NCBI RefSeq assembly: GCF_018698455.1
Contig: NZ_JABIOQ010000072.1
Span: 1-64,000 of the forward strand
Length of the DNA: 64,000 nt
Reading direction: 5' to 3'
Source of the DNA: Sulfurimonas sp.
Lineage (GTDB): Bacteria > Campylobacterota > Campylobacteria > Campylobacterales > Sulfurimonadaceae
Part shown: positions 16,109-25,042 of the stretch, piece by piece
Position numbering within the stretch: position 1 is the stretch's first letter
Layout of the letters: the number at the start of each line of letters is the position of its first letter
Made by a program: the position numbers and the translations under genes
Notes under the pieces: model-generated
Database searches by the model: none
Seen by the model: the letters and a program-made list of their open reading frames with translations, nothing else
Told to the model about the DNA's origin: nothing

Positions 16109-17032
16109 ATGCAAATAGTTTTACTAGACACACTCACATTTGGAAATACAGACTTATCTGTATTTGATGATTTAGGTGAGGTTTCTCTTTATAAAACAAC
16201 TTCACCAGCACAGACACAAGAACGCATAGCAAATGCGAATGTTATAATAACCAATAAAGTTGTTATAACAAAAGAGTTTATGCTTTGCTCGAAAAGCTTG
16301 AAGCTCATTTGTATAGCAGCGACTGGTATGAATAACGTAGACCTTGACGCGGCAAAAGAGTTAAATGTAGAAGTGAAAAATGTAGCTGGGTATTCAACAG
16401 ATTCTGTTATTCAACATACTTTTTCAATGCTTTTTTATCTGCTCGGACACTCTCGTTATTATGATGAAGTTGTCAAAGATGGAAGCTACTCTCGTAGCCC
16501 CATCTTCACTGATGTGTCGCATCCTTTTTTCGAAGTTAAGGGTAAGAAATGGGGAATCATTGGACTTGGAAGTATAGGAAGAGGTGTTGCAAATATTGCC
16601 AAAGCATTTGGAGCAGAACTCTTTTACTACTCTACTAGTGGTGTGAACCGCACTGAAGATTTTCAAAGAACATCATTAGACGAGATGCTTAAGAGTTGTG
16701 ACATCATTACCATACATGCCCCATTAAATGAGAAAACTGATAATCTACTAGACTATAAAGAACTTGCTACATGTAAAGATGGGGTAACTATTTTAAACCT
16801 TGGACGTGGAGGAATCATTAATGAAGAAGCTGTAGCTAAAATCATTGATGAGAAAAATATTTTCTTTGGTTTAGATGTTCTTACAAAAGAGCCAATGAGA
16901 GAAAATCACCCTTTACTCAATGTTAAAAATAAAGAAAACCTCTATATATCTCCTCATATCGCTTGGACTTCAGTAGAAGCCAGAGAAAAACTCATAACAT
17001 CCGTCATAGAAAACATTAAGAGTAGTTTTTAG
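16109..17032 (+). CDS. D-2-hydroxyacid dehydrogenase (hydroxypyruvate reductase-like)
   Basis: The NAD-binding Rossmann motif is 'WGIIGLGSIGRGVANIAKAFG' (about residues 146-166). Family landmarks follow: 'IHAPLNEKTDNLLDYKEL', 'LNLGRGGIINEEAV' with the substrate arginine, and 'LYISPHIAWTS' with the catalytic histidine. These enzymes reduce 2-oxoacids such as hydroxypyruvate or glyoxylate to D-hydroxyacids. Substrate choice cannot be read from sequence. The length of 307 fits the glycerate dehydrogenase type. It begins directly after the purT stop and is followed 6 bases later by a membrane-protein gene, so the three are likely co-transcribed. Confidence 0.85.
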   Translation: MQIVLLDTLTFGNTDLSVFDDLGEVSLYKTTSPAQTQERIANANVIITNKVVITKEFMLCSKSLKLICIAATGMNNVDLDAAKELNVEVKNVAGYSTDSVIQHTFSMLFYLLGHSRYYDEVVKDGSYSRSPIFTDVSHPFFEVKGKKWGIIGLGSIGRGVANIAKAFGAELFYYSTSGVNRTEDFQRTSLDEMLKSCDIITIHAPLNEKTDNLLDYKELATCKDGVTILNLGRGGIINEEAVAKIIDEKNIFFGLDVLTKEPMRENHPLLNVKNKENLYISPHIAWTSVEAREKLITSVIENIKSSF

Positions 17033-17038
17033 AGCCTT

Positions 17039-17443
17039 ATGGCAGAACTCACTCTTTTTATCAGTGCTTTTCTAGCAGCAACCATTCTTCCTTTTTCTTC
17101 TGAAGCCACATTTTTATTTGCAATAACAAACGATATGCCAATTTTAAATGCAATGATTTTCGCTTCTTTTGGGAATGTATTAGCCATAATATTTAACTAC
17201 TACTTAGGGTTTTTTTTATATAAAAAAACAAAAGATAAATTACTCTCATCAAGAGTTGGTAAAAAATCTTATGAGTATGGAAATAGGTATGGTAATTGGG
17301 CACTACTGCTCTCATGGTTACCAATAATAGGCGATCCAATAACAATAGTTGCTGGTCTTTTTAGACTTAAATTTGTCTGGTTTATTATAATTGCAGGTTG
17401 CTTAAGGGTAGCAAGATATTATTTTTTAACTCAGTTATTTTAA
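17039..17443 (+). CDS. YqaA/DedA-related membrane protein
   Basis: The 134-residue protein has about four hydrophobic segments. It carries the family features 'FLAATILPFSSEATF' near the N-terminus, 'FGNVLAIIFNYYLGFF', and 'LLSWLPIIGDPITIVAGLFR'. This is the pattern of YqaA, the short branch of the DedA (VTT domain) family of inner-membrane proteins, some of which act as lipid scramblases or flippases. Its substrate is unknown. It ends where the convergent NHL lipoprotein gene ends (4-base overlap). Confidence 0.75.
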   Translation: MAELTLFISAFLAATILPFSSEATFLFAITNDMPILNAMIFASFGNVLAIIFNYYLGFFLYKKTKDKLLSSRVGKKSYEYGNRYGNWALLLSWLPIIGDPITIVAGLFRLKFVWFIIIAGCLRVARYYFLTQLF

Positions 17444-19664: not shown

Positions 19665-21179
19665 ATGAATTATAAAAGTGATGTTTTAGTTATAGGAGCA
19701 GGTGGAGCAGGGCTTACAGCAGCTTTACATGCTAAAGAGAGTGGAGCTAGAGTTATAGTTATTACAAAAGAGTATCCAACACGAAGTCAAACATGTATGG
19801 CTCAGGGTGGTATAAATGCAGCCCTTGGAAATGTAGAAGAAGATAGTGTTGAATCTCATATTGCAAACACACTAAAGTCAGCTCATGGTGAAGCAGATGA
19901 AGCAGCTGTTCGTTTTATGTGTAGTGAGGCTATCAATGCAGTAGAGTGGCTAGATAGTATAGGCGTTTGTTTCTCTCGTGCAAAAGATGCAAAAATAGCA
20001 CAGAGAGCTCTCGGAGGAGCTTCTGCTGCTCGCGCTTGTTATGCACAAGACTATACTGGGTTAAAAATACTTCACACTATATATGATAGATGTTTGCAAG
20101 AGAACATAGAAATGAAAAATGAGAAATATCTCTTAGAGCTTCTCAAAGATGAAGAAGGTAGAGTGAAGGGTGCGAAAGTATTAGACATTCGAAGTGGAGA
20201 AGTAGAAGTTTATGAAGCAAATGCAGTCATAATGGCGAGCGGTGGTTATAGTCGTATTTACGATAAAAACTCTACTAATTCCACTGCTTCAACAGGTGAT
20301 GGGATTGCGGTAGCTCTTAGAGCAGGTGCGAAGCTTATAGACATGGAGTTTATTCAGTTCCATCCAACTGGACTTAAAGGCTCATCCATTCTCATAAGTG
20401 AATCAGCTCGTGGAGAGGGTGGCCATATTGTGAACTCCAAGGGTGTGCGTTTTACTAACGAGCTAGCCCCTCGTGATGAACTCTCTCGTGCCATAAACGC
20501 AGAGATAGCAAAGGGTGAGCAAGTTTTTTTAGACATACGACATCTTGGAGAAGAACTGATAAACGAGGGTTTACCTCAAGAGAGGAAACTAGCAAAACTG
20601 TATGAAAATGTAGACCCGGTTCATGAGATCATACCTATTCGTCCAGTTGCACATTACACTATGGGTGGGATTGAAGTAGATCATAAGTCTCAAACTTCAC
20701 TGAGTGGTCTATATGCTTGTGGAGAATGTGCAAACCATAGAGTGCATGGTGCAAATCGTCTGGGTGGAAACTCTCTTTTAGAAATCGTAGTTTTTGGAAA
20801 AGAAGCAGGATTAAACGCAGCAAAATTTGCACTTTCTCAAAATACTGAAAGTTCTTATATTGAGCAACCTGATGTAATGAATGATATAAAAGCAGGTAAG
20901 AATGAGATAGATTTTTATTCGTTTCGTCAGCACATCGGTGATATGTTTTATAAAGATGTAGGAATAGTAAGAACAAGAGAGCAGTTAGAATCAGCTCTAA
21001 AAGAGATTTTAGAGATTAAAGAAAAACTTCCTTTGATGGGTGTAAAAGACACTTCGAAGGTATACAATACAAACCTTGTGGAGTTTATAGAGTTTAGAAA
21101 TGTGTTAGCCGTTTGTGAGCAGGTTGTTTCATCAGCACTTAAACGCGAGGTGAGCTGTGGTGCTCACTATATAGTTTAG
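19665..21179 (+). CDS. Fumarate reductase/succinate dehydrogenase-type flavoprotein, short form
   Basis: The fold and active site of FrdA/SdhA are present: FAD motif 'GAGGAGLTAALHAKESGA', substrate residues in 'QFHPTG', 'ARGEGG', 'APRDELSRAI', 'AHYTMGGIEV' and 'GANRLGGNSL'. Two features differ from the membrane enzymes. The histidine that covalently holds FAD ('RSHT' in E. coli FrdA) is replaced ('RSQTCMAQGG'), so FAD should be non-covalent. The chain also stops at 'SCGAHYIV', about 70-100 residues short of the usual C-terminal domain. There is no Tat signal, so it should be cytoplasmic. An iron-sulfur subunit follows but no anchor subunit. L-aspartate oxidase also lacks the His, but the paired FeS gene argues for a reductase. 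Confidence 0.85.
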   Translation: MNYKSDVLVIGAGGAGLTAALHAKESGARVIVITKEYPTRSQTCMAQGGINAALGNVEEDSVESHIANTLKSAHGEADEAAVRFMCSEAINAVEWLDSIGVCFSRAKDAKIAQRALGGASAARACYAQDYTGLKILHTIYDRCLQENIEMKNEKYLLELLKDEEGRVKGAKVLDIRSGEVEVYEANAVIMASGGYSRIYDKNSTNSTASTGDGIAVALRAGAKLIDMEFIQFHPTGLKGSSILISESARGEGGHIVNSKGVRFTNELAPRDELSRAINAEIAKGEQVFLDIRHLGEELINEGLPQERKLAKLYENVDPVHEIIPIRPVAHYTMGGIEVDHKSQTSLSGLYACGECANHRVHGANRLGGNSLLEIVVFGKEAGLNAAKFALSQNTESSYIEQPDVMNDIKAGKNEIDFYSFRQHIGDMFYKDVGIVRTREQLESALKEILEIKEKLPLMGVKDTSKVYNTNLVEFIEFRNVLAVCEQVVSSALKREVSCGAHYIV

Positions 21180-21195
21180 TAAAGAGTTGGAAATT

Positions 21196-21891
21196 ATGAT
21201 AAATATAAATATTAAACGTGAAAATGAATTTGTAGAATATGGTGTTGATTTAGAAGACGTAACACTTCTTGAAGTACTTATAGAGATTAAAACAAAACAA
21301 GATGTAAGTCTAGCATTTAGTAGTGGTTGTCGGAGCAGCGTTTGTGGTTCTTGTTCAATGCGAGTAAATGAAAGAGAGGTCTTGGCTTGTTCTTATAAGG
21401 TACAAGATGGAGATACAATTGAACCACTTAAAAATGTAGAGGTTATACGAGACTTAGTTACTGATATGGATGCTTCTTATACTTTTAATGCAAGAGCAAA
21501 AGCATGGCTACAAGAAGGTCTTGGTATTTCACTTACTCAGGACGATGCGAAGATAAATGAAGTACAGAGCGACTGTATACTTTGTGGATCATGTTACTCC
21601 GCTTGTCCTGTTTATAGTGTTAACAAAGACTTTTTAGGACCTTTCGCATTGACTAGAGTTTGGAAGTATGTAAGCGATAAACGCGAGGGTGAACCTAAAA
21701 CAAAAATAGATAATGTCCAGCTTAATGGTGTGTGGGATTGTACACTTTGCAATGAATGTACAATAGTTTGTCCTCAAAATATTTCAAGTAAAACAGATAT
21801 AGAGAAACTACGTTTTAAATCTGCACAGTATGGATATATGGATCCTAACTTTGGTGGATTTGGTAGTTTTGATGGAAGTCCTAGTTTCTAA
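21196..21891 (+). CDS. Fumarate reductase/succinate dehydrogenase-type iron-sulfur subunit
   Basis: The N-terminal ferredoxin-like part has the [2Fe-2S] ligands in 'GCRSSVCGSCSMRV' plus a later 'VLAC' (about residues 43-65). The C-terminal half has 'CILCGSCYSACPVY' and 'CTLCNECTIVCPQN'. In E. coli the third site is a [3Fe-4S] cluster because one cysteine is missing. Here that site has a full CxxCxxC plus the later CP, so it may hold a [4Fe-4S] cluster, as in the archaeal class-E enzymes. The track start is a TTG at 21187; the ATG at 21196 has AAAGAG nine bases upstream and is preferred. No SdhC, SdhD or CCG-domain SdhE gene is adjacent. Confidence 0.87.
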   Translation: MININIKRENEFVEYGVDLEDVTLLEVLIEIKTKQDVSLAFSSGCRSSVCGSCSMRVNEREVLACSYKVQDGDTIEPLKNVEVIRDLVTDMDASYTFNARAKAWLQEGLGISLTQDDAKINEVQSDCILCGSCYSACPVYSVNKDFLGPFALTRVWKYVSDKREGEPKTKIDNVQLNGVWDCTLCNECTIVCPQNISSKTDIEKLRFKSAQYGYMDPNFGGFGSFDGSPSF

Positions 21892-23091: not shown

Positions 23092-23109
23092 AGAAAGAGT
23101 CTCTATTTT
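23085..23109. terminator. Bidirectional hairpin terminator
   Basis: AAAATAGAGA, five bases, then TCTCTATTTT form a perfect 10-bp stem with an A-rich entry and a T-rich exit on both strands. It lies exactly between the convergent helix-turn-helix and DUF1538 genes and overlaps both stops. Confidence 0.8.
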
Positions 23110-25042
23110 ATAAGTCAGCTTTATTTAAAGTAAGACCCTTAAGATTTGAGATAGGGTAAGAGTAAGTAAGACCTTTTCCATCCCCTGTTATATCCAATTC
23201 ATCGATAACAGACTTGATAATAGGTTCGACATTTTTTGTTTGTGTTATAAATAATAGGTCTGAATTAATATTTTCCGTATGGAGTCTATTGTAAATACTT
23301 TCTAGTTTTTCAAGTCCCATCCCATGGGCTTCTGTTATTGTCACTCCTCTCGCTCCAGCACTCTTAGCGGCACAGAGAGCTCTTTCTTCGCCTTCTTTTG
23401 GAACTATAACATGTACAGCAGAAAAGGACATTTCATATGAGTGACGCTGTCCTGTTCCTTGAATGTTAACCGTAGTAAGACCCATATTATGGGCATCTTC
23501 AATGGCATGTCTAAACTCATCGCGTTTAATAGCATCTTCCTCATGCTTACCTTTTATACCCATATTCTCTGTGATAATTCCATAAAGCATAACAGTTATC
23601 ATAGGAAAAAGTGAAGCAAACGCGATAAGACCAAAACCATCTATAAGTGGATCGCGTCCTGGTATGTTTGTAGCAAGACCAAGACCAAGTGCTGCAACAA
23701 GTGGTACAGTAACTGTAGACGTTGTAACCCCACCACTATCATAAGCTATGGGAATGATGTACTTTGGTGCTATAAACGTAAGGGCAATTACAATCATGTA
23801 TCCAGCCATGATGTAGTAAACTATTTCTCCACCTACGACAATGCGATAAGCACCTAAAGAGATACCAATCGCTACACCAAGAGCAACGAAAAGACGTAGA
23901 ACAAAGTCATTTATCTTGCCATCACTTATCTCTTTAGCTTTTCTTGCAATAGCTGTCAAAGAAGGTTCTGCCATAGTTGTTGAGAAACCTATGAGAAAAC
24001 CAAATGAGTAAACTATAACATTGCTATCGTATTGTGTTAGCTCGAAAGCCATAGTCTCACCAACAGAAAAAAGACCCATCTCTAAACCAACAATAAAAGC
24101 ATCTAAACCTAGGATTACAAGCCCAAATCCAATGATGACATTTTTAAGATTATCTATAGGTTTTTTTAGAATTGCATATTGAAAAAACAGGATGATTGCT
24201 AAAATAGGCACAACATCTATAATGACTCCACCAATTCCTTTGAGTATGTTTAAAAAGGAAAAGTCAAAGTTTACAGCATTATTTGCTACTGCATCAGCTA
24301 TGGGAAGAATATGAGGAACTTGCTCAACAGCATCTATAAACTCATAAACAAAAATACCATAGAACTGAACAAAAATCATAGGTGTTAAAGAAGCAAATGC
24401 AATAAGACCAAAACCATCTAAAACAGGATTTCTCCCCTTTATAGTAGAAGCTAAACCAATGCCAAGAGCTGCTACAAGAGGTACTGTCACGGTAGATGTT
24501 GTTACTCCACCGAGGTCATACGCAAGACCTACAATCTCTTTAGGAGCAAAAATAGTAGCCGAGACAACCATAACATATCCACTAATGATATAGTAGTGGA
24601 TGGGGTGCCCTTTAATAATTCTGTAAACACCAATAACTATGGCAAGTCCAACTGAAAATGCAACTACTAAACGCAGGGTGGTAGCATCGATTCGACCTGA
24701 ACTGATAGAGGCTGCTTTTTGAGCGATAACGATGAGGGCAGGTTCGGCGATAGTTGTACCAAAACCAATCATAAAGGCAAAAATAACAATGAGTATAGTA
24801 GAGTCTTTACGAGCAAATTCAGTCGCTAGACCTTCTCCAACGGGAAAAATACCAACTTCAAGACCAAGTAAAAAGATAGCAAGACCGACACCAACTATGG
24901 CAAGACCAATAGTCGTACTCAACCAGTTATCAGGAACACTCTGAATAATAGCGAGTTGAAAAAACATAATAACAAGAATGATAGGCAAGAGGTCACGAAA
25001 AGACTCTTTTAGAAGTTGGAGAAAGGATGCAAAACTTAACAT
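23108..25042 (-). CDS. DUF1538 membrane protein (duplicated) with PII-like C-terminal domain
   Basis: The 644-residue protein contains two copies of the DUF1538 membrane unit. Each has '[11 protein letters not shown]' or '[11 protein letters not shown]', then '[24 protein letters not shown]' or '[24 protein letters not shown]', then '[14 protein letters not shown]' or '[14 protein letters not shown]'. After the second copy comes a soluble stretch from about residue 505 ('[33 protein letters not shown]'), which looks like a PII/GlnB-type sensor fold. The family has been reported to include cation/proton antiporters (UmpAB), from memory. Ligand control of transport by the PII-like tail is an inference. 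It is a single-gene unit on the minus strand. Confidence 0.82.

Follow-up and report, generated by a model that had tools for sequence, protein, structure and literature searches.

Among the major primary producers of vents and redoxclines are the Campylobacterota, which fix CO2 by the reductive TCA (rTCA) cycle. In Sulfurimonas denitrificans and a relative, a two-subunit copy of fumarate reductase without a membrane anchor has been suggested to be cytoplasmic and to act in this cycle (Sievert 2008, quoted in PMC4674564; PMC2628731). The passages on this copy in PMC4674564 and PMC2628731 hold no flavin, cluster or phylogenetic analysis. More broadly, homologues with non-covalently bound FAD, among them soluble fumarate reductases and aspartate oxidase, reduce fumarate and cannot oxidise succinate, according to a review (PMC9557727). 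Here we describe a comparable gene pair, A and B, in a Sulfurimonas sp. (Table 1); the window is the whole stretch of DNA that was analysed, 64,000 nucleotides in length. Like the copy in those passages, the pair consists of FrdA and FrdB genes only, has no anchor and occurs in the same lineages, and on gene content and lineage the two are probably orthologous. The existence of such a pair and its rTCA role had already been proposed. New are the FAD site, which is predicted to be non-covalent, the deep position of A in the phylogeny, the four-cysteine correlation described below and the frequent linkage to a D-2-hydroxyacid dehydrogenase gene. On balance, we favour reading A/B from its sequence as a cytoplasmic, anchorless, reduction-only fumarate reductase fed by a putative soluble electron donor and used mainly for the rTCA cycle.

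Table 1. Features of the A/B locus, in window positions
Feature	Position	Strand	Basis
A: SdhA/FrdA-type flavoprotein, 504 aa, no FAD-linking His	19665..21179	+	ORF, domain and model matches, alignment, AlphaFold
Q42 codon, at the FAD-linking His position	19788..19790	+	alignments
A substrate/catalytic residues H233 (20361), E246 (20400), R270 (20472), H330 (20652), R365 (20757)	20361..20759	+	
B: SdhB/FrdB-type iron-sulfur subunit, 231 aa	21196..21891	+	ORF, domain and model matches
B second-cluster motif CILCGSCYSACP (C127-C137)	21574..21606	+	alignment
B third-cluster motif CTLCNECTIVCP (C182, C185, C188, C192); extra Cys is C185	21739..21771	+	
B C-terminal tail, conserved, Gly/Phe-rich, end predicted disordered	21817..21888	+	alignment, pLDDT
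D-2-hydroxyacid dehydrogenase (PRK08410), upstream of A; possible functional neighbour	16109..17032	+	

The two genes are adjacent on the same strand, 16 bases apart. The flavoprotein carries PF00890 and PF02910 domains and scores 557.5 bits against the SdhA/FrdA model TIGR01812, just under the cut-off of 567.3. An AlphaFold model of A built from 16 orthologues has a mean pLDDT of 87.9, and its best PDB match is E. coli FrdA (TM-score 0.92-0.93 over the query). The initial annotation had reported a Gln in place of the FAD-linking His. Indeed, alignments place Q42, within 'TRSQT', where the SdhA and FrdA of both E. coli and the Sulfurimonas genome itself have His. Wherever the site is readable in an A orthologue, no His turned up there after all: the residue is mostly Gln, and in a few cases Asn, Ala or Gly. 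Archaeal TfrA, fetched separately, has Cys at this position, and the readable matches outside Campylobacterota among those listed, a sample rather than a census, carry His. The FAD of A is predicted to be non-covalent. The C-terminus is shorter than that of E. coli SdhA by about 48 residues, of E. coli FrdA by 68 and of Wolinella FrdA by about 110. An earlier description of A as lacking the C-terminal domain was nevertheless overstated: the last segment is absent, but the helical part is present (PF02910, residues 421-502). Most A orthologues have some 25-30 more C-terminal residues than the window's A, so the very short end is a trait of the Sulfurimonas group.

The substrate-binding and catalytic residues of A, initially described as kept, proved invariant across 16 orthologues (H233, E246, R270, H330 and R365), and the alignment gives A counterparts for NadB H244, E260, R290, H351 and R386. 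At the position of the NadB-specific E121 (E. coli numbering), A has Leu, its relatives Leu or Phe, and SdhA/FrdA Phe. With the active-site counterparts kept and E121 replaced, fumarate or succinate is expected as the substrate rather than aspartate. A is short and His-less, as NadB is, yet an L-aspartate oxidase-like enzyme for NAD synthesis is extremely improbable, given the Leu or Phe at E121, the separate NadB clade and the presence of a separate NadB in this genome and nearly all other pair carriers. A replacement of NadB by A is rejected, a separate NadB being present. Superfamily membership and a complete active site would also suit a succinate dehydrogenase running in the oxidative direction. 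We consider this very unlikely, because A lacks the FAD-linking His, its non-covalent-FAD relatives are reported to be unable to oxidise succinate (PMC9557727), and a class-E SdhABE that does carry the His is encoded separately in the genome. For a fumarate reductase of the kind we favour, only the reductive direction would be expected, since non-covalent FAD has a lower potential.

The iron-sulfur subunit B combines a 2Fe-2S domain with two more cluster motifs, as members of its superfamily do, and scores 180.4 bits against the TIGR00384 dhsB model (cut-off 88). ATG at 21196 is the better start, and TTG at 21187 is possible too. Alignment bears out the earlier observation that the third-cluster site has four cysteines (CTLCNECTIVCP) where E. 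coli has three (CTFVGYCSEVCP in FrdB). This four-Cys site is found in all B orthologues examined and, within the set compared, in the B subunits of class-E, Mfr and Tfr enzymes, which have CCG partners, and in one further protein (L133). The anchored enzymes of the set, with SdhB and FrdB of E. coli and the FrdB of Campylobacterota, have three cysteines. The third cluster of B is probably [4Fe-4S], and the pattern fits an electron partner that is soluble or of the CCG type, not an anchor that binds quinone. The likeness to class-E enzymes drawn in the initial annotation holds for the four-Cys third site and for nothing beyond it, a clade of A with class-E SdhA having been rejected. A domain search of the 231 aa of B gave no CCG match. 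Its C-terminal tail follows the pattern GY.DPNF ... F, with G213, P217 and F222 invariant and pLDDT below 50 at residues 221-231, and is a possible docking peptide.

The Sulfurimonas assembly (2.23 Mb, 98% complete) encodes four flavoproteins of the SdhA/FrdA/NadB family, A included. The others are a class-E SdhA with SdhB and SdhE (contig C39), which has the FAD-linking His, a Wolinella-type FrdA with FrdC and FrdB (C13), and the separate NadB (C28). There is no SdhC, SdhD or SdhE gene near the pair in the window, as had been claimed. A search of the whole genome for a CCG subunit or an anchor did find SdhE and FrdC, each encoded in a separate complete operon and not with A/B. Neither is therefore a partner left over for A/B, although either could be shared. 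CCG domains occur in only two proteins of this genome, SdhE and an orphan GlcF/GlpC-like protein on contig C40 (L234:4063-5346). The latter has two 4Fe-4S and two CCG motifs and adjoins an lgt-like gene, with no GlcD neighbour; CCG proteins of similar size are present in nearly all genomes checked. That A/B borrow SdhE or this orphan protein, and so reach the quinone pool, would accord with the four-Cys third site common to class E and Tfr, with an orphan CCG protein that has no adjoining GlcD, and with CCG proteins in 33 of the 33 genomes tested. We nonetheless find it unlikely, since genomes without the pair have CCG proteins too, A does not group with class-E SdhA, and several pair-bearing Arcobacteraceae-type genomes (G165, G261 and G070) have no class-E SdhA. 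SdhE as an obligatory partner is likewise improbable, several pair carriers lacking class-E SdhA.

The surroundings of the pair also argue for an enzyme that works without a dedicated membrane subunit. Across some 29 pair neighbourhoods there is no conserved anchor, membrane or CCG gene, so that an anchor co-transcribed with these subunits elsewhere, named in the initial annotation as a refutation, did not turn up. A VTT membrane protein at 17039-17443 was considered as a hidden anchor and rejected, because it occurs in Sulfurimonas and close kin only; elsewhere its slot holds an unrelated ORF, lipoprotein-like or non-membrane. Another membrane protein of the window is a duplicated DUF1538 protein that ends in a C-terminal P-II-like domain (23108-25042, minus strand).

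The D-2-hydroxyacid dehydrogenase gene lies close upstream of A in about 17 of 29 loci, in several families, and abuts A in one, while other neighbours vary. This linkage raises the prospect that A/B have a different dicarboxylate as their substrate and form a short pathway together with the dehydrogenase next to them. Such a role is improbable: all the fumarate-type active-site residues are kept in A, and of the 28 pair-less genomes 22 have the dehydrogenase, whereas several pair carriers lack it, a distribution that gives no support to a pair-specific partner. The different substrate raised in the initial annotation found no positive evidence, as A has retained all dicarboxylate and catalytic residues and does not have the Glu that makes NadB specific for aspartate. 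The linkage does, however, count against the favoured reading to the extent that a fumarate reductase role leaves it unexplained.

Orthologues of B (best E < 1e-45) are present in 139 of 299 genomes of the order, from many families, and the named records with A orthologues, among the matches listed, come from Sulfurimonadaceae (Sulfuricurvum), Sulfurovum, an Arcobacteraceae bacterium and other Campylobacterota. The Suden locus tags gave no match in the open literature. The pair is real, conserved and largely unstudied. ATP-citrate lyase is encoded in 43 of 52 genomes with the pair, compared with 13 of 28 without it (Fisher p 0.0017, uncorrected for kinship). Nine pair-bearing genomes lack the lyase, seven of family f9, which holds Arcobacteraceae-like pair carriers, and two of f20; conversely, the 13 pair-less genomes have the lyase without the pair. 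The nine exceptions show that the pair has uses besides the rTCA cycle, and for the same reason we reject the pair as a strict rTCA marker. They favour instead a general cytoplasmic, reduction-only fumarate reductase for which the rTCA cycle is the main use. Against this stands the membrane FrdCAB of the same genome, which could carry out the same reaction.

The fumarate reductase reading is based on sequence features, conservation, phylogeny, context and co-occurrence, from which we infer the solubility, flavin state, cluster type, direction, donor and role of A/B. We propose that electrons would enter B from a soluble low-potential donor, with ferredoxin, flavodoxin or a CCG protein as candidates, cross the three Fe-S clusters of B to the non-covalent FAD in A, and there reduce fumarate to succinate. 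In autotrophs, A/B would supply the fumarate-to-succinate step of the rTCA cycle independently of the quinone pool. In some relatives without the cycle, the pair may perhaps provide anabolic succinate or an electron sink. If the step is indeed carried out by a soluble, reduction-only enzyme and not by a membrane quinol enzyme, its energetics change.

The phylogeny of A was reconstructed from 74 sequences, with Aquificota FrdA left out and the tree rooted on NadB by assumption. A and its orthologues group in a single clade (bootstrap 100, SH-aLRT 99), separate from the families of FrdAB, SdhABE, MfrAB and NadB against which a check had been proposed; NadB is a clade of its own. TfrA branches first, followed by A together with another His-less Campylobacterota family (84/87, not strong), and then by all His-bearing SdhA/FrdA/MfrA (81/79, or 99/98 without MfrA). 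In the best tree, the His-bearing SdhA/FrdA thus all group to the exclusion of A. The AU test rejects a grouping of A with class-E SdhA (p-AU 0.0012), and with it an origin of A from class-E SdhA by loss of the His. Placement of A inside the non-Mfr His-bearing enzymes is disfavoured (p-AU 0.022). The same test does not reject A and TfrA as one clade (p-AU 0.19); in the best tree, TfrA is separate. The second His-less family comprises SdhA-type flavoproteins of about 550 aa with RSNS at the FAD site and no adjacent iron-sulfur subunit; it is absent from the window's genome. Its members (L103:7237-10010, L105, L108, L109, L110 and L132) adjoin an aldo/keto reductase gene, which the related L106 and L107 do not have next to them.

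Since A lies outside the His-bearing enzymes, its Gln more plausibly marks a lineage in which the covalent link was never present, or disappeared very early, than a recent decay. This suggests that the A lineage split off before the covalent flavin link evolved, and the position of A is relevant to the question of how complex II acquired its covalent flavin, and at what time. We tentatively entertain a further reading, though we rate it as rather unlikely: A/B may belong to a distinct clade of complex II relatives whose divergence predates covalent FAD. The two subunits would work on their own as a fumarate reductase onto which a soluble donor docks directly, and would represent an intermediate without anchor, placed between enzymes of the NadB/TfrA type and the respiratory ones. 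Ferredoxin or flavodoxin would then bind B near the four-Cys third cluster, possibly via the Gly/Phe-rich tail.

Compared with known systems, the pair has the features of the SdhA/FrdA and SdhB/FrdB superfamilies, the hydrophilic part of complex II. Respiratory complex II and quinol:fumarate reductase possess a FAD-linking His and an encoded anchor, and the pair has neither. Class-E SdhABE and MfrABE share the four-Cys third site, but have His at the FAD site where it is readable and B subunits of 320-330 aa; in addition, the class-E SdhABE of this genome has the CCG subunit SdhE, and none is encoded with A/B. NadB resembles A as a flavoprotein of about 500 aa without the FAD-linking His, and differs in its Glu at 121, in having no iron-sulfur partner and in forming a separate clade. 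The NADH-dependent soluble fumarate reductase of Aquificales (Hydrogenobacter) is likewise a fumarate reductase of rTCA autotrophs. By its description, the Aquificales enzyme is set apart from the two-subunit pair by having five subunits, which in Aquifex aeolicus are FrdA-E, one of them annotated as nox (PMC10052474). Against the TfrA model, A scores 398.1 bits, under the cut-off of 718. A TfrA-like flavoprotein of Desulfoscipio (L202) also scores below that cut-off, at 577.8 bits, and its partner B is short (241 aa) and without the CCG half of TfrB. The second half of TfrB carries CCG domains by family definition, and TfrB is 460-550 aa long, in contrast to the 231 aa of B, which has no such half. 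TfrAB of methanogens is like the pair in several features: it has no His at the FAD site (Cys in TfrA), a four-Cys third site and no membrane anchor gene.
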